The notes: generated from the letters alone by a model not told the origin. 64,000 nt of DNA from an uncultured Clostridia bacterium (GCA_944389475.1 CALXMM010000007.1:1-64000); one strand, 5' to 3'; shown: positions 33,535-47,799, counted from the stretch's first letter. Translations and numbers: made by a program.

Positions 33535-34642
33535 TTAATGTTTGTTAAATTTTTTTAAATATTCTTTTATAAAATCATCTAATTGTCCATCCATAACAGC
33601 TTGTACATTACCAACTTCATAATTCGTTCTATGGTCCTTTACCAATGTATATGGGCAAAATATATATGACCTAATTTGACTTCCCCATGCAATATCTTTT
33701 TGTTCACCTTTTAAGTTAGAAATATTTTTTTCATGTTCCTTTTCTTTTAAATCAAACAATTTTGATTTTAACATTTTCATTGCAGTTTCTCTATTTTGAA
33801 TTTGAGAACGTTCTGACTGGCATGTTACTACTATATTAGTTGGTATATGCGTTATTCTTACAGCAGAAGAGGTTTTATTAATATGTTGACCCCCAGCACC
33901 GGATGCTCTATATGTATCAATCCTTAAATCATCCGGATTTATATCAACTTCTATATCATCATTTATCTCCGGTAAAACTTCTACAGAAGCAAATGATGTA
34001 TGTCTTCTTCCTCCACTGTCAAAAGGTGAAATTCTAACTAATCTATGAACACCCATCTCACCTTTTAAATATCCATATGCATATTCACCCTTAACTAAAA
34101 AAGTAACACTTTTTATTCCAGCTTCATCGCCTTCTAAATAATCCAACTCCTTAACTTGGAAACCATGCTTTTCAGCCCATCTAGTATACATTCTATATAG
34201 CATTTCTACCCAGTCTTGAGATTCTGTTCCGCCAGCTCCCGGATGCATAGAAACAATTGCATTATTAGCATCATATTTACCAGATAATAAAGTTTTAATT
34301 TCTAAATTTTCAATATCCTCTTTAAGTTGTTTGGTATCATGCAACAATTCCTTAATAAGGTCATTATCCTCTTCTGTGGTTAATAAATTATTCATTTCTT
34401 CCAAATTTTCCAAACTAGTATATACTTTAGTATATGAATTAACCTTATCTTTTAGAATTTTAATCTCTTGCAAAATACTACTATTATCCTTACTCCAAAA
34501 ATCCTGTTTCAAAGTTTCTTTTTCCAATTCAGATAATCTTACTTTAAGCTTATCTACTTCAAAGAGAATCACCTATTTCTTTTAATTTAATAGATAAATC
34601 CTGAAGTTCTTTTAAATTCTCTTCTAACTCTATCACTTCCAT
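33535..34642 (-). CDS. prfB: Peptide chain release factor 2, with programmed +1 frameshift
   Basis: RF2 ends translation at UGA and UAA. The first frame starts at ATG 34642 (or GTG 34636, better spaced from AAGGAG) and runs to an in-frame TGA at 34561-34559. The slippery codon CTT precedes that TGA, and a GGTGA-type Shine-Dalgarno sits a few bases upstream. A +1 shift continues into the main 340-codon frame at EVDKLKVRL. GGQ lies in RASGAGGQHINKTSSAVRI, and domain 2 has the RF2-type stop-recognition region ISPFDSGGRRHTSFASVEV. It is autoregulated by the frameshift, as in most bacteria. Confidence 0.93.
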
Positions 34643-34648
34643 CACTCC

Positions 34649-35167
34649 TTATATTCTTTTTAGTGGTCTAATTTCTAGCCAAAATTTATCTCCTCTAAGT
34701 ACAGCTTTTTTTATGTCATTTAAATTATACTTTGCTGTTTTCCTTATAAATTCTATTGTTTCTTCTAGATTTAATATTTTAGTTTTTCCAGTCTCGTAAA
34801 AAACTTTATCTTTAACCTGTTCCGGAATTTTCACCTGAAAGATTTCTTGTAATTCCTTATTCAAAATATCATAATCAGTATAAATATATTTTTTTGAAAA
34901 TATACTTAAAAACTTATTATAAAACAAATAATCTGTAACTAAATGCAAAAAATAACCCTTATCGAAATCTTCGTTTATATCTCTTTTATTAAAAAATTCT
35001 CTTAAATTTGGCTGACTACTTTTAGGTCCAAAATGTGTTAATGATTTGTCTGTTACAGAATCAGGATAAATTATTCCTTCTATAAAATCCTCATATTTTT
35101 TTATTTCATTTGGATAATTTCTTAAATATTCCTCTCCCACTGCTAGGTGAATTACATAACCTGCCAT
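34649..35167 (-). CDS. Small zinc-dependent phospholipase C-like hydrolase
   Basis: A 172-residue protein similar to the gene at 20096. MAGYVIHLAVGEEYLR supplies the N-terminal His, FIEGIIYPDSVTDKSLTHFG the Asp and His after the PD motif, and KGYFLHLVTDYLFYNKF the HxxxD motif near residue 97. No signal peptide or membrane helix is present, and there is a basic C-terminal tail. It begins 7 bp from the prfB start, so it belongs to the prfB transcript. Its leader holds the 22-nt sequence repeated at the window start. Confidence 0.65.
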   Translation of the reverse strand: MAGYVIHLAVGEEYLRNYPNEIKKYEDFIEGIIYPDSVTDKSLTHFGPKSSQPNLREFFNKRDINEDFDKGYFLHLVTDYLFYNKFLSIFSKKYIYTDYDILNKELQEIFQVKIPEQVKDKVFYETGKTKILNLEETIEFIRKTAKYNLNDIKKAVLRGDKFWLEIRPLKRI

Positions 35168-35176
35168 TGTTACTCC

Positions 35177-35198
35177 TTTCTAGGCAACCCTTTTCTTT
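35177..35198 (-). repeat. 22-nt exact repeat of the window's first bases
   Basis: The minus-strand sequence starting AAAGAAAAGGGTTGCCTAGA matches bases 1-22 exactly. Here it lies directly before the AAAGGAG ribosome binding site of the phospholipase-like gene; at the window start it lies inside an open frame. Confidence 0.85.
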
Positions 35199-35203
35199 AT
35201 AAG

Positions 35204-35623
35204 TTATTCATTTATTTTATTTTTTAAAAATTTATAAATAGAATAAACTATTTTAACAATAATTACTATAATAACAGGAAATAACAATGCTATTCCATAT
35301 TCTACATATTGCAAACCATCAAGCCATTGCCCATCTTTTGGCTTATACTCACCAATAGTAAATCCTAATACTATTGAAAAAACTACCCATAATATTAAGA
35401 AGAAAGCATTAAATTTTTTTGAACTGTAATTATTTTTAGTTATTATTTTTTTAGAATATATTAAATAGATAATAGGTGTTACAATAAGAAACATTATTGA
35501 AAGTAAATATTTTTGTAAATCATTATAACGTATTTGAATTGTTTCATCACAAAATATAAAAATTCCCCATCCTATTATTTGCCACAATATTACTAATAAT
35601 AAAGAATTTTTAAATTCTTTCAT
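35204..35623 (-). CDS. Small four-helix membrane protein
   Basis: A 139-residue integral membrane protein. It starts at ATG 35623, chosen because AAAGGAGGAG lies just upstream; a longer frame from 35683 has no RBS. Four hydrophobic segments lie at about 5-23, 35-52, 65-83 and 105-127, with short charged loops. No family is recognised. Spacing to the next gene (36 bp) allows co-transcription with the phospholipase-like gene and prfB. Confidence 0.7.
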   Translation of the reverse strand: MKEFKNSLLLVILWQIIGWGIFIFCDETIQIRYNDLQKYLLSIMFLIVTPIIYLIYSKKIITKNNYSSKKFNAFFLILWVVFSIVLGFTIGEYKPKDGQWLDGLQYVEYGIALLFPVIIVIIVKIVYSIYKFLKNKINE

Positions 35624-35685
35624 TTGTTTTTCTCCTCCTTTTATTCCCGTATACACTATATTATTCAAAAAGCAAAAAGTCAAAT

Positions 35686-35727
35686 AAAAACTACCTTAAA
35701 TCCAATTATGGAGATAGGGTAGTTTTT
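35686..35727 (-). terminator. Terminator after the ClpX-like gene
   Basis: AAAAACTACC (35686-35695) pairs with GGTAGTTTTT (35718-35727), bracketing a 22-nt loop, 19 bp beyond the stop codon of the minus-strand ATPase. Confidence 0.7.
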
Positions 35728-35745
35728 ATTGGAGAAATTGACAAA

Positions 35746-36909
35746 TTATGAAATGGTATATTTTGAATTATCATCAACAATACCCAAATCCAAAGTACAT
35801 TTCTTATATTTATCAAAATGCCTCTTCTTTGGATATTTTTTAGGATTAGAAAGAACTTCATATATTATTCTGTCAAAAATATAATTGACAGTATTATTAA
35901 GCTCTCTCGCTCCCGTATCAGTTAATAATGATTTTGCAGCGATAAGTTCAAACAGCTTTCCTTTATAGTAAAGCGAAATACCCCTATTACGCAATTCTCG
36001 TTGGTATTCCCTGAATATTGATAGCTTAGAATTCCTAAGTATCAATGCCAAGTCTTGTTTTGTAAGCTTGTTCATCTCAACTATAGTATTAATTCTACCA
36101 ACAAATTCTTCAGGTAAACCATATTTTATCAAGTCTTGCTTCAAGAATCTAGTATCTTGCTTTACCTTAGAATCTTTATTCAACCTAAAACCAGATTGAG
36201 TAGAGTTTAATCTCTTTTTACGAATTTCCTCTAGTCCAGAGAAAGCACCTAAAAAGATTACAATCAAATTGGAGGTATCGAAATTAATTGAAAACGGATA
36301 TTCATCCGTAGAAACTACGACATTTGAACCTTCAATTATTTTAAGAAGACTGTTTAATACCTCTCTTCCGGAAACATCACGTTCACCGGAAACACCATTT
36401 CCTGCTTTTTTGTCAATTTCATCAATGACAATTACTCCATTTTTAGCCCTTTCGATATCTTCGTTTGCATTTTCGTAGAGATTATAAATCATATCTTCTA
36501 CATCAGCTCCATAATACCCTTCTTGAGTATACTTTGTAGCATCCTCAATAGTATATGGAAGATTAAGCTCATTCAAGATTTGGCGTATGGTCTCTGTTTT
36601 ACCAGTACCACTGTCACCAATTATCAAAAGGTTTGTTTTTATTTGTTTAAAAACAATTGCTTTATAAATGGCTGTAATAATCTGTCTTACTGGTTTATCT
36701 TGACCAATAATACATCTTAGAACGCTTTCTTCTACATCTTGAATTCTTGGAAGTTTCGTTATTGTGGATCCTTGACCTTCGGAATTTTCCTTCAAGAATC
36801 TATTAATTGCATTAGGCCTTTTGCTTTTATTTCTTTTCGCCTTTGCTTTTGGATTCTTCGTTGAATTCTCAGTAGTAGTAGCATTCTGATCAATTACATC
36901 ATCTGTCAT
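35746..36909 (-). CDS. ClpX-like AAA+ ATPase without a zinc-binding domain
   Basis: A 387-residue AAA+ protein of the ClpX/HslU clade. A Lys/Asn-rich disordered N-terminus (1-45) replaces ClpX's zinc finger. Walker A is GDSGTGKT (98-105), Walker B is VIDEID (161-166), the arginine finger region is FVGRINTIVEM (R272) and sensor 2 is GARELNN (333-339). The ClpP-docking IGF loop is not evident, so it may act as a stand-alone unfoldase or remodeller. Codon use is less AT-biased than that of its neighbours. It has a consensus promoter and its own terminator, so it is monocistronic. Confidence 0.82.
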   Translation of the reverse strand: MTDDVIDQNATTTENSTKNPKAKAKRNKSKRPNAINRFLKENSEGQGSTITKLPRIQDVEESVLRCIIGQDKPVRQIITAIYKAIVFKQIKTNLLIIGDSGTGKTETIRQILNELNLPYTIEDATKYTQEGYYGADVEDMIYNLYENANEDIERAKNGVIVIDEIDKKAGNGVSGERDVSGREVLNSLLKIIEGSNVVVSTDEYPFSINFDTSNLIVIFLGAFSGLEEIRKKRLNSTQSGFRLNKDSKVKQDTRFLKQDLIKYGLPEEFVGRINTIVEMNKLTKQDLALILRNSKLSIFREYQRELRNRGISLYYKGKLFELIAAKSLLTDTGARELNNTVNYIFDRIIYEVLSNPKKYPKKRHFDKYKKCTLDLGIVDDNSKYTIS

Positions 36910-36966
36910 GATATTCTCCTTGGTATCTTATAAGGTACTTGAATATTAAATTGTATTGTTCAGTTG

Positions 36967-36995
36967 ATTTTATCACTTATGATTAGTTATGTCAA
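36967..36995 (-). promoter_or_regulatory. Sigma-A promoter for the ClpX-like gene
   Basis: On the minus strand TTGACA (36995-36990), a 17-bp spacer and TAAAAT (36972-36967), with a leader of about 55 nt before the start. Confidence 0.8.
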
Positions 36996-37031
36996 CGAAA
37001 TTTATGCTTATTCAACTATTTTAATTGTTTT

Positions 37032-37532
37032 TTATTCAACTATTGCAGATGATACATGAAAAACTTCTCCCCTATCTTTAAGTGCTTTCTTTGTATTTCT
37101 TAATATATTATGGTCATCATCTAATAATATTAAATAATCATATTCGTTTGCTTTTTCAAGCATTTTGTTGCCTTTAACATAGTTTCTATTTTCTGAATTG
37201 TAATCTCCATTTTCTTTTACTAAAATAATGTAATTACTTTCTTTAATAAAAGGCATATATTTTTTTAACCAAATCTTTTTTTCTTCTCTTATTATATTGC
37301 TCCTTGAGTAAGTTAATATGTATATATCTATATTCTTTAACTCATTTATTCTTTTAATTTTATCTATTATAAAATTAAGTGGTTTATTATCCACAAATAG
37401 ACCTCTAGACTCAGTAGTTACCGCTCCATCTGGAAATACATTATATTCTACTAACGTTCCATCCATATCTACAAATAAAGCAACTTTATTATGTTCACCA
37501 CATATCTTTTTTATTCTTTCATAAAAATCCAT
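37032..37532 (-). CDS. HAD superfamily phosphatase-like protein
   Basis: A 166-residue HAD-fold protein. Motif I is ALFVDMDGTLVEYN (near residue 19), with the nucleophile and acid Asp residues. Motif II is the Thr/Ser of YILTYSRSN (near residue 73). The C-terminal LILLDDDHNILRNTKKAL supplies the acidic motif IV. There is no large cap domain, so it could act on a macromolecular or phosphorylated small substrate. Its last codons (ATAGTTGAATAA) recur directly after the stop, a small duplication. Confidence 0.8.
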   Translation of the reverse strand: MDFYERIKKICGEHNKVALFVDMDGTLVEYNVFPDGAVTTESRGLFVDNKPLNFIIDKIKRINELKNIDIYILTYSRSNIIREEKKIWLKKYMPFIKESNYIILVKENGDYNSENRNYVKGNKMLEKANEYDYLILLDDDHNILRNTKKALKDRGEVFHVSSAIVE

Positions 37533-37770
37533 AATCTTTTCTCCTTTACCTATTGTATTAGTTTGATTTTATCATTCTATTTACTTTATATCAACCAATT
37601 ATATGTTTTATAGAAAAATTTTTCTAATTAGAAGAGGAAAATTTACTAAAAACTATTTTTCATTGATATTTAAATATGCCTATATATCCTAATGAAGGAT
37701 GTATAAAAATAATAAATGGTATAGCAGTTGTTAAATTAAATTATTAATGCTGTTATAATTTATTGAAAAA

Positions 37771-37803
37771 TTAAAAGAAGAGGATACAAACCTCTTCTTT
37801 TAA
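37771..37803 (-). terminator. Terminator of the accessory HEPN/DUF3800 operon
   Basis: TTAAAAGAAGAGG (37771-37783) pairs with CCTCTTCTTTTAA (37791-37803); on the minus strand TTTTT follows. Confidence 0.85.
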
Positions 37804-37811
37804 TTTTAGCT

Positions 37812-39938
37812 TTATACTTTAATTTCTTCAGCAATAATCTTGCAAGCCTTTCTAATAGTTTCATTGTCATCATTAGATATCTCTATAATCTCAAATTCTT
37901 CCTTAAATTTATTCAAAAATTCATTAATTTCACTATATTTTTCATTATTAACAATATTTGAATATCTTTTTAAAAGATTTTGTTTATCATTTTGAATATT
38001 TTTAGATATTATTAATTTATCTGCCTCTATGGCAATAGCTAATACATCTATGGTTTGTTCATTCATTTTATCGCATATTTCTAATGCTTTATCAAAATAT
38101 TTATTAGCCAAATCTCTATTTGCTTCCTCAATAAATTTTCCTAAATTCCAATAAATGATTTCAAATGGATGCATATAAATATCTTTATTATTATTTTCAA
38201 ATACTATTTGATTTTCCTCAGTTATTAAAGAATACTCATTATAAATTTCTTTATTGTTTTTATATGAATCATACATTTTTAATCCAAGAGATTTATTGCC
38301 ATTGTTTAATGCATTTTGCATAATTATAAAATAATTAGTTATAATAAAATTTTTAGAAAAATCTGTAATAGTATTAACATACGCTAAAAACTTATCAAAA
38401 TTAATCTCATTTAATCCAACAACTTTCATTAAATATTTTACAGCATTATCAAAATTATCCATAGAAATCTCTAACATTGCTCTATACTGATATTGCCTTC
38501 TTTTATCCATTTCAGATATAAATTGATTTATTGCAAAATTTGAATCTTGTACTGCTTTTTCATAATATTCTTGTTTTAAATTCTCCGGAGTATTAGGTGT
38601 AATTAAATTTGTATATGACTGAAGTCTCGTACCAACTGCTTTCGCAACCATATCTGATTTAATATTACTAAATTCTTTTACTTCATTCATGATTTTTAAA
38701 AGTTTTATAAATTTGTCTATAACTTCAGTTAATACATCTATGGCTTTTGTATTATTAAAACATGTATTATAAAATACAGCTTCTCTTATTTTTAAAATAT
38801 AATAATAATCCAAGAAATCCCAAGAGCCATTAATTTCTCTTAATCCCTTTTTACTTATCTCAATCTGTTTTTTGCTATTTTCATTATCACCTTGATGTGT
38901 ATATATTGTAAGAAGATATAATGAAATATCAATTTTAAGTTTGTTTATGATAAAATCTTTAACTTTAATTTTTCCAATTATTTCATTTTGTAGCTTTACC
39001 AAAAATTTCTCACATAAAATCAAATTCCTTTGAACATCAATTATACTTCTAATTTTAAGAGCTAATAATTCTAATTGTATCCTTAAATTAGAAATAGGCA
39101 TAGTGTTTATATTATTAATTATTAAAAGTGCTAATTCTTTAGATTGTTTTTCATCATTTTCTTCATTTAATAAAAACATGGCATCTACTACATTGTTTTG
39201 TATTAAGTATTCTGATAATTTCTTTTGAATATCTGTTTTAAACACACTAAAAATATACTTACTACTATCATATATGTTATTTAAAATTTCTCTTTGTTCA
39301 TCATTGAATTTTTTACTGTTTATAGTTAATTTAGAATTGCAAACAACATCTGCAATCATTAATTTTGGATTTTTCCTTGCAGATGAAAGTTTGAAATTTA
39401 GTTTACAATTCTTGGATAAAAATAAATTTTTCTCAGCCATTTTCATATATATTCGTTCTTTTATTCTTGAACTATATTCCTCTATTTCTATTACAGTTTT
39501 ATCATCATCAATTTTTAAATCTCTTCTTACAGCAGCAATAACATTTAACTCTATTGGGTCAGCTTTTTCCATCGAAAGCTTTTCCAATAAATTCACTATG
39601 CCCTCAGCCATAATATTTAAATATAGCAATTTATCATCTTTAAAATCCAGTAATTCTTTATTAGAAAAAACTACTACATGTGCTGGAATATTTCTTATAT
39701 TTTTCATAATATCAACGGCTACTTTTGCAGATAATTTAGGATTTATTTTAGTTAAATCATTAATATGTACATATTTCTCATGTACATTTTTTACAGCCTC
39801 TTCCATAATATTTTTTGCTTTATCAATAAACAAATCATCTTTCTTTACCAATATCCCACCAATTAATGATGGTGAAATTGCTTTATTTTCATCTACAAAT
39901 TTTCCGCTTTCATCTAAATATAATTCAAAACTTCTCAT
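37812..39938 (-). CDS. DUF3800-TPR-like protein
   Basis: A 708-residue protein, last in the accessory operon. The N-terminal ~230 residues match DUF3800: ELYLDESGKF at the start and KNPKLMIADVVCNSKL near residue 190 hold the acidic residues of this RNase H-like family. The rest (about 250-690) is all-helical, with tetratricopeptide-like pairs such as YEKAVQDSNFAINQFISEMD and NFDNAVKYLMKVVGLNEINF. DUF3800 proteins are often linked to antiviral or mobile-element loci; the TPR part could sense a partner. Nuclease activity is inferred from family and not shown here. Confidence 0.75.
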   Translation of the reverse strand: MRSFELYLDESGKFVDENKAISPSLIGGILVKKDDLFIDKAKNIMEEAVKNVHEKYVHINDLTKINPKLSAKVAVDIMKNIRNIPAHVVVFSNKELLDFKDDKLLYLNIMAEGIVNLLEKLSMEKADPIELNVIAAVRRDLKIDDDKTVIEIEEYSSRIKERIYMKMAEKNLFLSKNCKLNFKLSSARKNPKLMIADVVCNSKLTINSKKFNDEQREILNNIYDSSKYIFSVFKTDIQKKLSEYLIQNNVVDAMFLLNEENDEKQSKELALLIINNINTMPISNLRIQLELLALKIRSIIDVQRNLILCEKFLVKLQNEIIGKIKVKDFIINKLKIDISLYLLTIYTHQGDNENSKKQIEISKKGLREINGSWDFLDYYYILKIREAVFYNTCFNNTKAIDVLTEVIDKFIKLLKIMNEVKEFSNIKSDMVAKAVGTRLQSYTNLITPNTPENLKQEYYEKAVQDSNFAINQFISEMDKRRQYQYRAMLEISMDNFDNAVKYLMKVVGLNEINFDKFLAYVNTITDFSKNFIITNYFIIMQNALNNGNKSLGLKMYDSYKNNKEIYNEYSLITEENQIVFENNNKDIYMHPFEIIYWNLGKFIEEANRDLANKYFDKALEICDKMNEQTIDVLAIAIEADKLIISKNIQNDKQNLLKRYSNIVNNEKYSEINEFLNKFKEEFEIIEISNDDNETIRKACKIIAEEIKV

Positions 39939-39960
39939 TTTATCATCCTCTCTTGAAAAA

Positions 39961-41658
39961 TTATTTTTTTATAAAGCTTGGCTTAACTTCTCCAGCAAAA
40001 TAATTTATATACTTATCTTTATCTTTTATAAAACATAAATAATTATTATACATTATTACATATTTTCCCAAATTTATTTTTTGATCTTCTTTATATCCAA
40101 CTTTTACATCCATATTATCATATTCGATATTTAAATTAGAAATATCATAAAATTTGTTTAAATAATTAACAAAAAAACGTGTTATATTCCACACTGCATA
40201 AATATTGTCATCATTTAATATTCCATGTGCTTCTACTTTATTTCTAAATACAATAAATAAATTCATCATTCCATCATATGTAATGTTATCTCCCTTAATT
40301 TCAGTATCTATCATGTTTGATAAATAGTATTTTATTAAAACTTTTTCATCTCTTGATAAATTATATTTTTTCTCTCTTAAATTCCTATATAACCTTTCCT
40401 GAGGTTGTTTGTATAAATTAATTAATATGTTACTATTCCAAATTGAAGGATTATCGCCTATTCTTCCCTTATCTATTTTATTTATATCAAATTTTTTATT
40501 ATATTTTGAATATAAATAATATTCAATTAATTTTCCACAAACAGTTATATAATTAAAAAATATAAGAACTGATTGATAAGGAGACTTATTTAAATATGCA
40601 TTTCTAAATAATTCAAATAAATATTTATCTGTAGGTACATCCTCTATCTTATCTTTTAATCTGTTATTAAAGTTATATTTACATGTAATTTCTATATTTT
40701 TAATAATGCTATCAGTAGTACTTTTTAATATAAATTTAGAAGAGGATAATTTTTTTAATGCTCTTTTATATTTAAATTCGTTTACAATATTATCAATTTC
40801 AATTGATAATATGTTTTCTACAAATTGAATATCATTTTCTAAATCACATATTTTTAAAGCATTTATATGTTGTAATTCTGTTTTTGTATAAATGTTTTTT
40901 AAATTAGAAACTGCCATAATATGGTACATATGAAAATTGTTTATAGTTTGTTTTTCTAATATATTTTTTATTTCTCCTATATCATTAATTTCATGTATCA
41001 CAGCAACGGTATTAGATAATACTAAGCTTTTGGCTTTTTCATTGTATTTTACAATTTCCGGTAGATCTTTATTAATATTAATATATATATTGTATTTTTC
41101 AATTTTATATTTCGGTAAATTAATTAAATCAAATGAACTTGATGTTTTAGAACCATCTATTAAAATAAAATTAAATTCCGTTTTACCTTTTTTTATATCT
41201 TTTCTTAATTTTTTTAATTTAAACGCTATATCATCACTTTTGGACATTAAGGCATGTAAAATGTAAAAAGTTATTGTAACTAATATAAATAGAATTATTA
41301 ATCTAATATATCTATAGGAAAAACCAGATAGTATTGTAACTTTATAGGTTGATAATAGTATTAAACTTAATTTAATTATTTCTAGAAAAGCAATATTTCT
41401 AGAAAATTTTAAATTTGCATCCTTTTTATATGTAAATAAAATATTTTTTATTTTTTTATCTCTATTTAAAATATCAAATATATATAATATATAAATTATA
41501 TCAAAAGCTAAAACAAGCAATACAGCTCGAATCCATCCATATGGATTGCTACTTAATGCTATCCCACATTGTTTTAATACAATGTTCAAACCAATTAATT
41601 CAATAGAAAAAATAAAGATTAGAATATACCAGTTAAGTTTTTCTATTTTCTGTTTCAT
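39961..41658 (-). CDS. Membrane protein with C-terminal HEPN-like domain (565 residues)
   Basis: Four hydrophobic segments occupy about 10-30, 42-62, 92-112 and 118-140. A long cytosolic part follows. Near the C-terminus the segment FRNKVEAHGILND contains R472-N-x4-H478, the RNxxxxH motif of HEPN ribonucleases, in a helical context. It ends in a small beta-rich tail (YVIMYNNYLCFIKDKDKYI). The next gene upstream encodes a longer protein of the same plan, with an equivalent motif and tail, so the two are diverged paralogues. No overall family is recognised. It lies 23 bp before the DUF3800 gene. Confidence 0.7.
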   Translation of the reverse strand: MKQKIEKLNWYILIFIFSIELIGLNIVLKQCGIALSSNPYGWIRAVLLVLAFDIIYILYIFDILNRDKKIKNILFTYKKDANLKFSRNIAFLEIIKLSLILLSTYKVTILSGFSYRYIRLIILFILVTITFYILHALMSKSDDIAFKLKKLRKDIKKGKTEFNFILIDGSKTSSSFDLINLPKYKIEKYNIYININKDLPEIVKYNEKAKSLVLSNTVAVIHEINDIGEIKNILEKQTINNFHMYHIMAVSNLKNIYTKTELQHINALKICDLENDIQFVENILSIEIDNIVNEFKYKRALKKLSSSKFILKSTTDSIIKNIEITCKYNFNNRLKDKIEDVPTDKYLFELFRNAYLNKSPYQSVLIFFNYITVCGKLIEYYLYSKYNKKFDINKIDKGRIGDNPSIWNSNILINLYKQPQERLYRNLREKKYNLSRDEKVLIKYYLSNMIDTEIKGDNITYDGMMNLFIVFRNKVEAHGILNDDNIYAVWNITRFFVNYLNKFYDISNLNIEYDNMDVKVGYKEDQKINLGKYVIMYNNYLCFIKDKDKYINYFAGEVKPSFIKK

Positions 41659-41676
41659 CTAATTCATCCCTTCCCC

Positions 41677-43608
41677 TTACATAAATCTTCCTAATGTTTC
41701 TTCTATTTCAGAAGGAGCCCAAATTCTGTCCAACATTTCAAAAATATTACCATTAGACATACGCTTTCCAGTTTCGTAATTTAAATATTCTGGAAAGTCT
41801 TTAGATTTATTTTTATTCATCTTACTATATAAATAAATAAACTTATCTTCTTTGTATATTGCTTTAATATCTTCTGCAAATATTTTCTTTATTTCTTCAT
41901 CTTCTTCTATTGTGATATCAATATTTTCAAAAATATTAACAAATTCCTTGGCAACAACAAATAAATATTTTACTATTCTTTCAGAAACATCATATGTAAT
42001 AACTCCATGACCAAGTAAATTATTTCTAATATCTATTATTGTTTTACATAAATCTTTTTTAAACTTAAATATATAATTTTCATTATATTCAGTCTTAAAT
42101 TCTAATATTTTTCTTAAATTGATTAACGAACTTATAATTTTTTCATCTTCTGCTAAAGTTCTATTATATGTTTTGTCATAATTAATACTATCACGCCAAG
42201 CAGATAACCCACCATCTTTTACTCGTATTTTTTTGTCTATAATTTTTTGTGGGGCATTTATTACATCTTTTAATCCTAAATAATGTATTATATATTCACA
42301 AATTTTTAATAGAGAATAGAAATATTCAATATAGTTAAATGATTTTAATATAGTGTTAAGACTATATTTTATATAAATATTTTTATCACTATTTTCTTTT
42401 TGACTTATTGAATTAAATAAATCTAAAACAGCTTCTTTTAAAGATATATCATCTTCTTTTAAATTTAAAACCTCAATTATAGCTTTTAAATCAAATTTAC
42501 TCCTATATCTTAATAAGAATTTTCCCTTGAGATTCTCTTTTTTTATTTGCAAACCGGGAAAATTAAATTTAGGAAAAATAATAAACTTATCACAATTTCC
42601 AATTATTTTATTTATTTTTTCTTGATAAATTCCCATTCTATAATCATCAATTACAAATAAATAAATATCATTCTTTAATAAAATGACATATGATTTCGCA
42701 TTATATTCAGTCGTTTTTATTAATCTATATCTTATTACATCATACGAAACAAATACATAGTCTTTTGCATCAACTAGTAAACTCTTTCCAATACTGGTTG
42801 TATTATATTTATAAAATTTAAATAAAGGATTTATAAAGTCTCCCAACATAGAAAACTCTCTACTATCTTGTGATGCAACAATTACTAAATTATCTTTTCC
42901 ATATTTTTGCTTATTTTTATTTATACACTTTTTAATAGATAAGTAATTTTTAATTATAAAACATATAACTGATAGTATAAGTATACTTATACCAGCCATT
43001 TTAACATAATAAACATATCTATATTTTGATGAAATTGTTAATACGAGAATAAAGAAAATAATAAATAATTTATATCTAAAAATATTTTTAATTACTCTAT
43101 CTAAAACATATCCAATTACTCCATAATTAGTAATGCTAACATAATTCTTTACCTTTTTCTCCATCTTTTCTCTTAATTGAGCAATTATAATAAATGCAAA
43201 AGAAAATATTGATTCAAGTAAAGTCATTTTTAAAATGTTTATATCACCATAATATTCTGGAATAAAAATAAAAGATAGTAACACTTTCTCTGCATTTTTT
43301 GATTGTGAATAATACAAATCATACCAATCATCTATTACATAATTCTTAGGTCCAAAATAATATATTAGATTTATTAAAACAAAAAAACTTATTATTACTA
43401 TTGTTGAATACAAAAATTTTCGTTTTTTTGTTTTTTCAAAAATATATTTTAGTGCATCATATTTAAAACATATAAGTAAAGCTAAAAAACTTGTAAAAAT
43501 TATATATACAGTTGAATACCAGTATGCAAATGTTATTGTACCTTTAGTAATAAGAAATACTATTACAAATAGTATTATTAATAATATAATTCTTAATAAT
43601 TTGTTCAT
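41677..43608 (-). CDS. Membrane protein with C-terminal HEPN-like domain (643 residues)
   Basis: Six hydrophobic segments lie in residues 5-225, followed by a cytosolic region that starts DNLVIVASQDSREFSMLGDF. The C-terminal helical domain contains DIRNNLLGHGVITYD, with R528-N-x4-H534, a HEPN-type RNase motif. After it comes a tail FIYLYSKMNKNKSKDFPEYL that parallels the tail of the 565-residue neighbour. The similar order of parts suggests the pair works together, perhaps as a heteromer. The overall family is not recognised, and catalysis is inferred from the motif alone. Confidence 0.7.
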   Translation of the reverse strand: MNKLLRIILLIILFVIVFLITKGTITFAYWYSTVYIIFTSFLALLICFKYDALKYIFEKTKKRKFLYSTIVIISFFVLINLIYYFGPKNYVIDDWYDLYYSQSKNAEKVLLSFIFIPEYYGDINILKMTLLESIFSFAFIIIAQLREKMEKKVKNYVSITNYGVIGYVLDRVIKNIFRYKLFIIFFILVLTISSKYRYVYYVKMAGISILILSVICFIIKNYLSIKKCINKNKQKYGKDNLVIVASQDSREFSMLGDFINPLFKFYKYNTTSIGKSLLVDAKDYVFVSYDVIRYRLIKTTEYNAKSYVILLKNDIYLFVIDDYRMGIYQEKINKIIGNCDKFIIFPKFNFPGLQIKKENLKGKFLLRYRSKFDLKAIIEVLNLKEDDISLKEAVLDLFNSISQKENSDKNIYIKYSLNTILKSFNYIEYFYSLLKICEYIIHYLGLKDVINAPQKIIDKKIRVKDGGLSAWRDSINYDKTYNRTLAEDEKIISSLINLRKILEFKTEYNENYIFKFKKDLCKTIIDIRNNLLGHGVITYDVSERIVKYLFVVAKEFVNIFENIDITIEEDEEIKKIFAEDIKAIYKEDKFIYLYSKMNKNKSKDFPEYLNYETGKRMSNGNIFEMLDRIWAPSEIEETLGRFM

Positions 43609-43637
43609 TTAATTTTCACCTTTATCTAATAATATTA

Positions 43638-44507
43638 TTAAAATTCGACTGTTGTAGTCTCTGCAGGTTTTATCTCAAATGTTTTACTTTCGACATCATT
43701 ACCATTAATCACTTTAGTTAATTTATATTGTCCTACTGGTACATTTGTAAATATAACCTTTCCATCTCTACCCGTTTTTGAATCTCCTATAAATTCTATT
43801 TTATTATATTCTGGAAATATTTTATCAAATCTTACTTGTCCCCCTATTAACAAATCTTTTGTACCAGGTTTATAAAATGTAGCTTCAACTCTTCCATAAC
43901 GTTCAAAATATGTAACTAAGCCTGTTGTAACTGAAGATTTATATGTTTTTCCATTATGTACAAATTCAACTGTAAATTTATAATCAACTACCGAAAAATC
44001 TGTATTGTCAGGGCATTTAATAACTATGGTCTCACCATTTTCAAATTCAGATTTTGTATTTTTATTTTTATCTAAAAATTCAATTTGATTTTTATCATCA
44101 TAAAATTTTTCTATTTGTACTTTTTTTATTATAGAATCATCAACTCTTACCCTACATTCTGTATATAAAAATCCATCTTCTATATTATGTTGCCTATCAT
44201 TAAGTATTTTTAATTTCAATCCATATAATTCTGGTTTTTTAAATGTGTATTCATATTTTTTTATGGCTAAAGAATATTCATCTGCTTTTGCTTCCTCACT
44301 TAAAATAGGAACATAATTTGTATTATTATTTTCATTTATCTCCTCATCTTCATTTTCTAACAAATATACATCTATACTATTTTCTGCACTATAGTCTACA
44401 TCAACGTTATCTTCTTCATTTGATAGGCTAACTTTAGAAAAAATTACTATAGCAATAATCACAATTAAAATTATTATCAATAAAATTAATAATCTTTTAG
44501 ATTTCAT
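43638..44507 (-). CDS. Single-pass protein with C-terminal CnaB/SpaA-like domain
   Basis: A 289-residue protein with a basic N-terminus and one transmembrane helix (about 3-23), then an acidic Asn/Glu-rich linker (about 30-75). A beta domain around 130-190 contains KSEFENGETIVIKCPDN, and a CnaB-type beta sandwich occupies about 200-289 (VEATFYKP, TGRDGKVIFTNVPVGQYKL). No LPXTG sorting signal is seen, so the N-terminal helix is the anchor and most of the protein is extracellular. ATG 44507 follows AGAGGGG at 11 bp; a GTG at 44516 is a less likely start. The middle domain resembles one in the next upstream gene. Confidence 0.72.
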   Translation of the reverse strand: MKSKRLLILLIIILIVIIAIVIFSKVSLSNEEDNVDVDYSAENSIDVYLLENEDEEINENNNTNYVPILSEEAKADEYSLAIKKYEYTFKKPELYGLKLKILNDRQHNIEDGFLYTECRVRVDDSIIKKVQIEKFYDDKNQIEFLDKNKNTKSEFENGETIVIKCPDNTDFSVVDYKFTVEFVHNGKTYKSSVTTGLVTYFERYGRVEATFYKPGTKDLLIGGQVRFDKIFPEYNKIEFIGDSKTGRDGKVIFTNVPVGQYKLTKVINGNDVESKTFEIKPAETTTVEF

Positions 44508-44529
44508 AAAAAACACATCCCCTCTTTAT

Positions 44530-45507
44530 TTATGTAGTCCAATGAATTGTTACAGGTTGCTCCATATGGTTATCTATACCAGCATTAATTACATAATCAT
44601 CTCCATTTTCCGCTTCAAAAAAAACACCATTCAGTCTTTTTACATCAGTCTTTACTGTAACTATTAGATCATCCTTATTATTTGGACATTTAACATAAAA
44701 TTCATCATTAGCAGCAAATTCCGTTTTGATTTTTCCATTACTTTCTAAAATTTGTGCTCCTATATCATTACCATTATTATCTAATGCTGTCACTTCACAA
44801 TTCACTAATTCACCCGCTGTAACTGTATATTTGTATGGTCCCGCTATATATCCACCATTTTCATAAAAAACATTTTTAACATCTAAAGTTTTTACAGTTA
44901 ATGTTGAAACAAGATCAATTTCTTCATTATCTGTATAATCAAATTCTTCAATATATCTAATTAATTCTTCTGCTTTTCTAAATATTGTTTCATCTTTTAG
45001 TTTCAAATCATTTCGTACAGAATCCACATAACTAAGTTCCGTACCATATTTAGACTCTCCTGTACGAAATGCCAATTCCCATAGTGCTAATTGTTTAATC
45101 ATATAAGCTTCCTCAACAGTTTTAACTCCCATTTCTTCCAAACTTATACTTGGATATGTTTTTTTAAAAATCATATTTAATTGATCAGAAGCATAAGGTG
45201 CTTCACACCTTTTAAGTTTATCACCAACTTTAAGCTCACTATTGCCATATGATAAACTAAATATATCTACATTAGTATTTTCAGCTTTATACATTATGTT
45301 TAATGGGCTTGCTATTTGAGTTTGATTAACTTCGGATACAAATATCTCCTCTTTATCATCTATAAATGTATCTTTTGCAGGAACTAAATAATTGTTCTCT
45401 CTAAGCAATGTCATTCTATCAGCTATCTCATATCTGTATGTAACTACAGATAACAAAACAACAATTAATAAAATAATTGTAATTAAATACCTATAAATAT
45501 TTTTCAT
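44530..45507 (-). CDS. Membrane-anchored thioester-domain (TED/TQXA-like) protein
   Basis: A 325-residue protein with one N-terminal transmembrane helix (about 6-24). The region 98-150 shows the thioester adhesin pattern: RCEAPY with C101 and EAYMIKQLALWELA with Q139. These correspond to the Cys and the TQxAIW Gln that form an internal thioester in Gram-positive adhesins. A beta-rich part follows (about 200-325), with GPYKYTVTAGELVNCEV and TEFAANDEFYVKCPNN. Unlike classical thioester adhesins it has no C-terminal LPXTG. The Thr of TQ is replaced by Lys. Its start overlaps the previous stop by 4 bp. Confidence 0.68.
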   Translation of the reverse strand: MKNIYRYLITIILLIVVLLSVVTYRYEIADRMTLLRENNYLVPAKDTFIDDKEEIFVSEVNQTQIASPLNIMYKAENTNVDIFSLSYGNSELKVGDKLKRCEAPYASDQLNMIFKKTYPSISLEEMGVKTVEEAYMIKQLALWELAFRTGESKYGTELSYVDSVRNDLKLKDETIFRKAEELIRYIEEFDYTDNEEIDLVSTLTVKTLDVKNVFYENGGYIAGPYKYTVTAGELVNCEVTALDNNGNDIGAQILESNGKIKTEFAANDEFYVKCPNNKDDLIVTVKTDVKRLNGVFFEAENGDDYVINAGIDNHMEQPVTIHWTT

Positions 45508-46196
45508 TCTTTTATCCCCTCAAATTCCAAATCATATCTTAAAACCTTATTTTTTTCTTGTTCAAAATATCTATATACATAATCACCTGTATTGGTTGGA
45601 ACAGCATGATACATACCAGGGCTTAAATTCATAACTCCCGCATATCCATCCTTATTTGTAACTAATTTATGTAATAGTTCATTATCACTGTTGTATACAT
45701 TTAACTTTACTCCTGGTAAAGGATTTCCGCTTTTATCAGTTACCACGAATATAACAGCATTATCTGTAGTTTCATCTACAATATTTAACTCATAATGAGT
45801 ATCATTTGGAGAAAAGATAACTTTATACCTTTGATTATTTTTTGTATAACCATTTGGCACACTTTTTTCTTCCAAAAAGTATTCGCCATAGTCTAAACCT
45901 ACTACTCCACCTTGTCCCGCTTCATTTGTTTCAAAAGTAGAAACTATATTACCATCAAAATCCAAAACATTCCAAACTGCACCTTCTATAGATGTATCCA
46001 TATTTTTTAATCTAGTTAGGAAAATATAATTAGTAGTTGTACCTACTACTTTGCATTTTTTTTGTTCATTATTATAATTTATATACGCATCTATTGTTTT
46101 CTCTTCATAAATCATTTTATTAAATTGCACATATATCGCAAATAATAATGCAATTATTGTAATAAAAATAAATAATTTTATAACCGTATTTTTCAT
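45504..46196 (-). CDS. Single-pass protein with two CnaB/SpaA-like domains
   Basis: First gene of the accessory operon, 230 residues. ATG 46196 is chosen because AAAGGGGA lies 10 bp upstream; an in-frame ATG at 46241 has no RBS. One transmembrane helix (about 6-25) is followed by two prealbumin-like beta domains. The first reads EGAVWNVLDFDGNIVSTFET then GLDYGEYFLEEKSVPNGY; the second reads LPGVKLNVYNSDNELLHKLV then MNLSPGMYHAV. These are the SpaA/CnaB pattern of pilins and adhesins. No sorting signal is present, so it stays membrane-anchored. Confidence 0.78.
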   Translation of the reverse strand: MKNTVIKLFIFITIIALLFAIYVQFNKMIYEEKTIDAYINYNNEQKKCKVVGTTTNYIFLTRLKNMDTSIEGAVWNVLDFDGNIVSTFETNEAGQGGVVGLDYGEYFLEEKSVPNGYTKNNQRYKVIFSPNDTHYELNIVDETTDNAVIFVVTDKSGNPLPGVKLNVYNSDNELLHKLVTNKDGYAGVMNLSPGMYHAVPTNTGDYVYRYFEQEKNKVLRYDLEFEGIKE

Positions 46197-46252
46197 AATT
46201 ATTTTTTCCCCTTTATTTTCAATGTGAATTCTCATTTTCAAACTTATTCAAC

Positions 46253-46282
46253 ATTATATCTTATAATTGTTACGATTGTAAA
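46253..46282 (-). promoter_or_regulatory. Promoter of the accessory operon
   Basis: On the minus strand TTTACA (46282-46277), an 18-bp spacer and TATAAT (46258-46253), about 55 bp upstream of the first gene. Confidence 0.65.
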
Positions 46283-46332
46283 TAAAATAGACAAATTTTT
46301 AATCTTGCTATTATTAGAAATCAACAATTAAA

Positions 46333-46366
46333 AAGAAGTGCTCCCTAGATTTAGGTTACACTTCTT
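46333..46366 (-). terminator. Terminator after the CBS-domain remnant
   Basis: AAGAAGTG (46333-46340) pairs with CACTTCTT (46359-46366), with an inner CCTA/TAGG stem. TTTTTAATT follows on the minus strand. It survives downstream of a gene remnant. Confidence 0.65.
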
Positions 46367-46399
46367 AATTCTAATTATTTATTCTTTCCATGGCAGTTC

Positions 46400-46561
46400 T
46401 TATTCTACATTTACAATATCTAATAAAGGATTTTCACTAAATATTCCTACTAATTTTTCATTTTCCAAAATTTGGACATGAGTATATAATTTTTTTGTCA
46501 TTTCTTTGATTGTGTCATATATACTATATATAATTATATTATTTGTTTTTATTTTAGTCAA
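46400..46561 (-). pseudogene. Remnant of a CBS-domain protein
   Basis: An open frame without a usable start or RBS ends KKLYTHVQILENEKLVGIFS then ENPLLDIVNVE and a TAA stop. This is the second half of a CBS domain; the rest of the gene is missing upstream. A complete CBS protein exists at 52517. The remnant suggests past deletion or insertion at this spot. Confidence 0.6.
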
Positions 46562-46609
46562 TTAAATAAAGAAAATTTTTAAAAAATGTGATTTTTTTTT
46601 CATATTTTA

Positions 46610-46638
46610 TTGACATGAAATATATTTCATATTATAAT
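46610..46638 (+). promoter_or_regulatory. Perfect-consensus promoter with operator palindrome
   Basis: TTGACA (46610-46615), a 17-bp spacer and TATAAT (46633-46638). The spacer is almost filled by the perfect palindrome ATGAAATATATTTCAT (46615-46630), which looks like a repressor site. Confidence 0.85.
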
Positions 46639-46671
46639 TAAGTCTCCTAATAACTATAAAAAAGGAGCATT

Positions 46672-46896
46672 ATGGCAAACTATTATACATTACAACAGAT
46701 AAAATATATTTATAATACTCTAACTTCATGTAAAGGAAGTTGTCCTTTTTGTAATTTTAGGAAACTTCGTAACTATATAGATGACAATGGTTTCGAAGAA
46801 TTTCAACGGCAGTTACATGAAGATATTTTACCTGATAATATAAAGCGTGCCTTTGAGATAAAAATTAAGATGCTACAAAAAAACTCAAAATCTTAA
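46672..46896 (+). CDS. Small Cys-motif protein, paralogue of the next gene
   Basis: A 74-residue protein of unknown family. It starts MANYYTLQQIKYIYNTL. A cysteine cluster C-x3-C-x2-C (SCKGSCPFCNF, near residue 19) could bind metal. FEEFQRQLHEDIL then parallels FGLEEFRKRLNQKL in the next gene. AAAGGAG lies 7 bp before the ATG. Expression is from a perfect-consensus promoter and stops at a strong terminator, so the gene is a free-standing unit that could be highly expressed when its operator is free. Confidence 0.7.
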   Translation: MANYYTLQQIKYIYNTLTSCKGSCPFCNFRKLRNYIDDNGFEEFQRQLHEDILPDNIKRAFEIKIKMLQKNSKS

Positions 46897-46909
46897 TTTT
46901 TAACTCCTT

Positions 46910-46948
46910 TCCTCCCTATACTTATAATTAAGATAGGGAGGATTTTTT
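46910..46948 (+). terminator. Terminator after the first small gene
   Basis: TCCTCCCTAT (46910-46919) pairs with ATAGGGAGGA (46933-46942), followed by six T residues. Confidence 0.88.
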
Positions 46949-46965
46949 ATACCTTTCTTAGTCAA

Positions 46966-46994
46966 TTGATTTTATGTAAGTTTCGTGTTATAAT
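46966..46994 (+). promoter_or_regulatory. Extended -10 promoter for the second small gene
   Basis: TTGATT (46966-46971), a 17-bp spacer and TATAAT (46989-46994), with TG one base upstream of the -10 box. Confidence 0.7.
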
Positions 46995-47031
46995 AACATT
47001 ATGTTAATTGGCATTTTTAGAAAGGACTATC

Positions 47032-47205
47032 ATGCCTAATTATACAAGAAAAGATGTTGAAAAAGTATATAAATATTTATCTTATTATTCACGAAAAGGA
47101 AGCCTTGCTCATAGTGATTATGGTATTCTTGCCCGGATGAATATGTTTGGGCTTGAGGAGTTTCGTAAAAGATTAAATCAGAAACTTAGGCAAAACTCTT
47201 TATAA
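47032..47205 (+). CDS. Small 57-residue protein, paralogue of the previous gene
   Basis: Starts at ATG 47032 with GAAAGGA upstream. It aligns along its length with the gene at 46672 (MPNYTRKDVEKVYKYLSYYS against MANYYTLQQIKYIYNTL), but the cysteines are replaced by GSLAHSDYG. The C-terminal half, GLEEFRKRLNQKLRQ, is shared. The family is unknown. Its 3' end overlaps by 6 bp the 3' end of a truncated gene on the other strand, which suggests the pair arrived by insertion. Confidence 0.7.
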   Translation: MPNYTRKDVEKVYKYLSYYSRKGSLAHSDYGILARMNMFGLEEFRKRLNQKLRQNSL

Positions 47206-47565
47206 TAACTCTCTAGTAGATGATGTTTTTGAACCATGATGTGGAATTTTTATTATATCTGCTTTTAATCTACTTTTATTAGTTATTTCAATAATTCTTT
47301 TTTCAGCAATTTCCTCAATATCTCCTGTAAACAACATTGAAAAATTATTATAATGTATATTAAAAACTAAAGAATTATTATTTATTACATTTTCTTCTAT
47401 TTGCTCACTTTCTGGGAATAGTATATCTAGATATAAATCTTTTTCAATATTTATTTTATCTCCTCTTTTTCCTACTATAACTGGTATATTCTTTTCTTTT
47501 TCCATCAACCATTCCTGTTTCGAATCGATATTCGTAAACCTATCCTCTTTTCTTACACTTACCAT
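47200..47565 (-). pseudogene. Truncated ComEC-type metallo-beta-lactamase fragment
   Basis: A 121-residue open frame with a plausible RBS (AAGGAGAG) resembles the C-terminal lactamase part of ComEC-like competence proteins. KGNIPVI-like and GDKINIEKDLYLDILFPE segments are followed by LVFNIHYNNFSMLFTGDIEE and IIKIPHHGSKTSSTRELL. The HxHxDH metal site that should precede is missing. The protein stops where a full one would go on for dozens of residues. It is therefore probably a remnant, although a short functional protein cannot be excluded. Confidence 0.6.
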
Positions 47566-47602
47566 AATTCTCTCTCCTTCACTAATTTTTTTAGTGAAAC
47601 GG

Positions 47603-47633
47603 AAAATGTCAGCATTTAGAATGCTGACATTTT
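47603..47633 (-). terminator. Hairpin behind secA
   Basis: AAAATGTCAGCAT (47603-47615) pairs with ATGCTGACATTTT (47621-47633) around a 5-nt loop. It can end the secA transcript; the T run is short. Confidence 0.7.
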
Positions 47634-47694
47634 ATAAGATTTCTTAATTTGTTTACACAGTATTTTTATTGATATATAAAGGTTTTCTTTTGAT

Positions 47695-47752
47695 TTGTCC
47701 ACAAACTTTAATTTATGTGGACAAATCGTGGACATTTGTCCACTGTGGACAA
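47695..47752. promoter_or_regulatory. Cluster of five DnaA-box-like 9-mers
   Basis: TTGTCCACA occurs at 47695-47703 (+), 47716-47724 (-) and 47744-47752 (-). One-mismatch forms are at 47727-47735 (-) and 47736-47744 (+). Together they form two nested inverted repeats. The motif fits the DnaA box consensus TTWTNCACA or its TTGTCCACA variant. It lies between secA and a pseudogene, not beside dnaA. Confidence 0.5.
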
Positions 47753-47799
47753 GTTTTTGCATTTTATTTATTTTTATAAATGCTTATTTTTCATTGGGT

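Follow-up and report, generated by a model that had tools for sequence, protein, structure and literature searches.

A conserved six-gene operon of Clostridia joins adhesin-like surface proteins to HEPN-like membrane proteins and a DUF3800-type protein

A six-gene operon (g1-g6) carried by the uncultured Clostridia bacterium GCA_944389475.1 (CALXMM010000007.1:1-64000; described as a small Clostridia genome) is confirmed as a real and conserved unit, beyond chance, since its gene order recurs in other genera, its genes show similar synonymous divergence (dS) and dN/dS falls at 0.08-0.41 across all between-operon comparisons, indicating purifying selection. The operon brings together three membrane-anchored surface proteins, two multi-pass membrane proteins with HEPN-like domains and a soluble DUF3800-type protein. 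It is tentatively read here as a membrane sensor-effector spread by horizontal transfer, whose paired HEPN ribonucleases would be gated by pseudo-adhesins at the surface, and a defensive role is the most likely one. The interpretation offered with the original prediction is borne out in part. The original prediction had known of no described system with this set of genes; the combination is indeed absent from the literature searched, and none of the six proteins has a PADLOC match at E<=1.

Within the window, that is, the whole 64,000-nt stretch of DNA analysed, the operon was found as predicted, with six co-directional open reading frames on the minus strand spanning positions 46196-37812: g1 (45504-46196; 230 aa), g2 (44530-45507; 325 aa), g3 (43638-44507; 289 aa), g4 (41677-43608; 643 aa), g5 (39961-41658; 565 aa) and g6 (37812-39938; 708 aa). 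The close packing described for these genes was also seen, with g1 and g2 overlapping by 4 bp and the next gaps measuring 22, 29, 18 and 22 bp. Of the single promoter and single terminator that had been proposed, the latter stands as a strong rho-independent terminator after g6 (37767-37807, minus strand; -19.6 kcal/mol, z -6.6), whereas the promoter-like TTTACA-18-TATAAT site 57 bp upstream of g1 (46253-46282, minus strand) is a weak call, as sites of this type are not enriched relative to shuffled sequences. Hydropathy agrees with the membrane topology first suggested, placing one N-terminal hydrophobic segment in each of g1-g3, approximately six transmembrane (TM) segments in g4, four in g5 and none in g6. 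A C-terminal LPXTG-type sortase signal was searched for in g1-g3 and none is present. Rfam gave no match anywhere in the window, and hence no DUF3800-linked RNA motif.

The profiles of all six genes were mapped onto the fetched loci, with 388 genomes of the order sampled. The complete set is present in the window and in three further genomes of the order (L007, in which g5 is frameshifted, L028 and L029), while g1-g5 occur without a linked g6 in L008, L009 and L026, g4-g6 without the surface triad in L010, and g4-g5 only in L031, where g5 is again frameshifted. The genes thus co-occur, and do so in identical order in other genera, rather than having homologues scattered singly. Pairwise identities of g1, g2, g4 and g5 all give one grouping (window-L007-L026; L009-L028), which indicates that these four genes travel together. 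Between the window and L007, dS is approximately 1 and alike across the five genes compared (g1-g4 and g6), with dN/dS of 0.13 for g1, 0.26 for g2, 0.26 for g3, 0.20 for g4 and 0.08 for g6. The frameshifted g5 genes of L007 (6095-7889) and L031 (9110-10976), both of genome G374, are broken at different places; a phase-variable or programmed frameshift was considered and rejected because no long homopolymer lies at either break, and the lesions are read as decay or assembly error. Strong g5 relatives occur in nine of the 388 genomes (~2-3%). A weak g5 match in G359 was set aside as a chance match to an unrelated repeat/transglutaminase-type surface protein. Searches with P0003 and the g5 profile, including a class-wide g5 search, returned relatives restricted to the window's own order, and none were found in viral contigs, plasmids or phages (no plasmid matches for g5 or g6).

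In the window, the operon occupies the interval between secA and prfB (34573-47799), which is variable in the genus, holding different cargo in each genome and ranging from ~4 to 14 kb. Placement at the prfB locus is found in three genera, and the window, L007 and L008 copies lie there with no transfer genes seen. The interval was considered as a defence island and rejected, its cargo being ordinary (permease, NUDIX, hydrolases). Between secA and the operon (46400-47565) are a truncated metallo-beta-lactamase-like ORF (47200-47565), two small, similar plus-strand ORFs (46672-46896 and 47008-47205) and an apparent gene remnant. Downstream of the operon lies a stand-alone ClpX/Cdc48-type AAA ATPase (35746-36909; AAA_2, 5.6e-19), no relative of which was found near operon copies in other genomes.

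An ordinary chromosomal site and purifying selection would also suit a role in envelope-stress or contact signalling, whereby the wiring of surface proteins to HEPN domains trims selected mRNAs upon a stimulus, in an Ire1-like fashion and with no cell suicide, as was proposed for other membrane HEPNs (PMC3710099). Such a role is nevertheless unlikely, as the sparse distribution, the divergent copies within one genus and the presence of a TPR-DUF3800 partner are more typical of conflict systems. On these comparative grounds, a conflict system that moves horizontally is favoured because of its patchy presence, the existence of two diverged versions and the recombinase- and conjugation-type neighbours of some copies.

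The surface proteins retain adhesin-type folds but have lost the chemistry for which these folds are known. A strong Pfam match (1.9e-20) identifies g1 as a SpaA/CnaB protein, but the Lys of the first strand that would form the isopeptide bond is replaced; a PDB alignment pairs Arg62 of g1 (codon at 46011-46013, minus strand) with the isopeptide-forming Lys in a domain of 3RKP. Arg occupies this position in all four aligned copies and, by eye in the translations, in L026 and L029 also. The Pfam score of g2 as a thioester domain (TED) lies right at the cut-off; however, its profile aligns with Class II TED structures over ~220 positions (6FWV, E=2e-10; 6FWY, 3.5e-6), and the fold is clearly of this class. 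In TEDs, the Cys of a [YFL]C-hydrophobic-hydrophilic motif and a Gln near the C-terminus are the sole universally conserved residues (PMC6194298). The former position in g2 (FSLS, residues 83-86; 45250-45261, minus strand) is a Ser in six of the seven operon copies and an Arg in L008, the variants being FSLS, FSVS, YSLS and, in L008, YRLY, while the expected Gln is replaced by Ala, Val, Thr or Ser, such that neither bond-forming residue is retained. This register is supported by a TED of the same genome bearing YCLD, the Cys of which precedes a conserved YP by 35 residues, compared to 34 for Ser84 of g2. Cys101 of the window g2 was examined as a candidate thioester Cys and rejected, being at the wrong position and not conserved. 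The domain labels originally given therefore held for g1 and g2, but not securely for g3, an extracellular protein with a weak prealbumin-like C-terminal region, whose SpaA match (0.009) is under the cut-off and which is barely CnaB by its sequence. The original view of these genes as surface attachment modules does not survive, since with the thioester Cys and Gln and the isopeptide Lys lost they are not functional modules for covalent attachment; judged from their alignments, g1 and g2 are pseudo-adhesin domains, the folds of which are under purifying selection.

A family of membrane-anchored TED-CnaB proteins of 440-470 aa is found across the order, unlinked to g4 or g5, in which Ser also stands for the thioester Cys (YSIDYG, YSLDYG, YSLTYK). 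Its members include L126:6409-7740, L126:8808-10127, L127:9-1325, L128:8986-10251, L129:7111-8442 and L130:146-1552, and several of these order-wide genes lie near a secreted GH25-muramidase-like gene. Against this background, the operon-type g2 is by profile score a distinct group, restricted to the seven operon genomes at E<=1e-84, with the next best match at 5e-30.

The two multi-pass proteins contain the RNxxxxH motifs originally reported, RNNLLGH in g4 (528-534; 42007-42027, minus strand) and RNKVEAH in g5 (472-478; 40225-40245, minus strand), each an Rx4H with a polar residue following the Arg, in keeping with the Rx4-6H of HEPN domains. The R, N, K and H are invariant in all eight g5 sequences, and five of the 26 invariant g5 columns fall within the eight-residue motif segment (p=7e-6). 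Among nine g4 sequences, N and H are present in all and R in seven, Arg being replaced by His in L010 and L031. An hhalign comparison of the C-terminal regions placed the g4 and g5 motifs in register (E=5e-4, at a probability of only 31%), and the two proteins are, as far as their sequences can be compared, distantly related with a common C-terminal helical domain. AlphaFold2 models of the two proteins (pLDDT 76 and 73, from shallow alignments of 8-9 sequences) contain TM helices and an alpha/beta domain, together with a helical domain that has the motif at the end of one of its helices. In g5, the predicted Rossmann-like region covers ~160-285 and the HEPN-like helices 346-504, followed by a small C-terminal beta domain; the motif ends helix 461-478 and is succeeded by helix 486-504. 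The corresponding helices of g4 are 516-532 and 539-562, and both models are of moderate confidence. This is the placement described for HEPN domains, at the end of helix 3 and ahead of a loop and helix 4 (PMC3710099).

The HEPN assignment that had been made from the motifs is thus strengthened by their conservation and by their position at a HEPN-type helix end, but the fold itself remains only probable, as whole-chain Foldseek searches at E<0.001 gave no PDB or viral match for g5 and no PDB match for g4. Neither protein has a match in Pfam, NCBIfam, PADLOC or PHROGs; weak BUD31/TolA/KH matches in Pfam lay under the cut-off, and full-length Foldseek matches to ATP citrate lyase, PurE and RCK domains had E>0.03, and all were discarded. 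The lack of a recognised HEPN profile or fold match, the loss of Arg in two g4 proteins and the many TM segments would also agree with g4 and g5 being no RNases at all, instead forming a membrane assembly (a scaffold, channel or transporter) for the surface proteins, with RN-x4-H having a structural part in the helical domain. Few parts of g5 are, however, as invariant as the motif segment, which the models of both proteins put at the canonical position for HEPN, and the proteins are associated with a DUF3800-TPR protein, all of which makes this alternative quite unlikely. A pair of putative membrane-bound HEPN ribonucleases is the preferred reading of g4 and g5.

The third component, g6, is soluble and was proposed to be a DUF3800-TPR-like protein, a label that profile-profile comparison upholds for DUF3800. 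Although both domains score under the Pfam cut-off, the N-terminal part of g6 can be aligned with the host family's DUF3800 proteins starting at its first residue, DESG (9-12) on DESG, at an hhalign score of 29.2 against a maximum of 20.2 in 150 column shuffles, and both DESG and the later AD (D197) are conserved. The literature describes DUF3800 as a nuclease with an RNase H fold (PMC12669027; PMC10910872), and a protein of the same TPR and DUF3800 architecture accompanies a Cas12a2 branch (PMC10910872). Seven of the 388 genomes have g6, and all seven, which lie within the nine with strong g5, also have g4-g5 (hypergeometric p=1.4e-13, uncorrected for genome relatedness). Nevertheless, g6 is missing from, or unlinked to, several operons. 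G096 has it by itself on a contig of 64 kb (L079), while in G041 it lies behind an AAA/DUF4143 gene on a contig of 4 kb (L006), with the g1-g5 operon elsewhere in each genome. The g6 copies of G041 and L007 share 99% identity, whereas g5 of the G041 operon is only 38% identical to the window g5; this disparity suggests that g6 was transferred separately from the operon, with the caveat that the 4 kb G041 contig may be misbinned, the G096 case being independent. In two genomes of another genus, g9 (L026:10343-12639; L027:5312-7611), the place of g6 behind g5 is taken by a second pseudo-TED together with a transglutaminase-like protein.

The patchy spread of the operon, the presence of two diverged versions within a single genus and even within one genome (G374), and the neighbours of several copies point to horizontal mobility, as far as gene content and identity can tell. 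Serine recombinases adjoin the L031 and L026 copies. The L028 copy is flanked by a VirD4-like coupling ATPase and a 1476 aa surface protein (L028:1-6411), which suggests that it resides on a conjugative element. These neighbours, and the Class II TED adhesin needed for efficient conjugation of B. subtilis (PMC8092201), could speak for a conjugation or competition module whose surface proteins recognise or exclude mates or rivals on mobile elements while g4-g6 penalise the entry of foreign DNA, but this is very unlikely given the prfB-locus copies, the lack of plasmid matches for g5 or g6 and the lost thioester chemistry.

Under the sensor-effector reading, g1-g3 would together make up an external, non-covalent sensor or plug, built of adhesin-type folds that no longer perform thioester or isopeptide chemistry and coupled through the membrane to g4 and g5. 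The latter would each contribute a cytoplasmic alpha/beta domain and a HEPN-like RNase domain, acting as a heterodimer, with g6 as an exchangeable accessory nuclease or adaptor (a DUF3800 RNase H-like domain on a TPR-like scaffold) working with them. A surface disturbance, most likely from an adsorbing phage or entering DNA, or else from contact with a mating partner or competitor, might then unleash the HEPN pair, whose cleavage of cellular RNA would arrest the cell. Set against this reading are L010, which has no surface triad, the g4 proteins of L010 and L031 that lack the motif Arg, and the ordinary surroundings in the window's genus. This type of mechanism has a precedent, as a 2013 study predicted that membrane HEPNs link stimuli at the cell surface to the degradation of RNA (PMC3710099, section 15). 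With surface domains and intracellular RNase candidates in one unit, that idea would become directly testable. The operon probably works as a tripwire, shutting down a cell that has been contacted or attacked, and it exemplifies the reuse of adhesin folds after the loss of their covalent chemistry. Most known bacterial immune sensors act inside the cell. A class of immunity in which non-reactive descendants of adhesins serve as external receptors, triggering a membrane HEPN heterodimer and a DUF3800 nuclease at the step of adsorption or entry, is conceivable though somewhat doubtful.

In the models of g4 and g5, a Rossmann-like domain precedes a HEPN-like one, an order that presumably parallels the CARF-HEPN effectors Csm6 and Csx1, whereas g4 and g5 are TM-anchored, have no CARF match and are accompanied by no cyclase or CRISPR genes. 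The membrane-associated HEPN proteins of Anantharaman et al. 2013 (PMC3710099) likewise combine a cytoplasmic Rx4H domain with TM helices and a proposed path from surface stimulus to RNA decay, but in each of those cases one protein, with one or two TMs, does the work (DUF4145 WP type, Abi2/SWT1 type, HEPN-TM-Zn ribbon), compared to the two multi-pass proteins seen here, which bear an alpha/beta domain and are joined by surface genes and a DUF3800 gene. As in the Cas12a2 systems (PMC10910872), a DUF3800-type domain and TPR-like helices stand beside an effector; here, however, the DUF3800 domain is very divergent, CRISPR genes are absent and the partners are HEPN-like membrane proteins. Finally, g2 can be aligned with almost the entire Class II TED of TIE proteins (BaTIE, 6FWV; PMC6194298) and keeps the Gln-x2-hydrophobic-Trp helix motif, and g1 has CnaB folds, but the bond-forming residues of these domains are replaced in g1 and g2, which are short, anchored in the membrane rather than by sortase, and encoded in an operon with HEPN-like genes.
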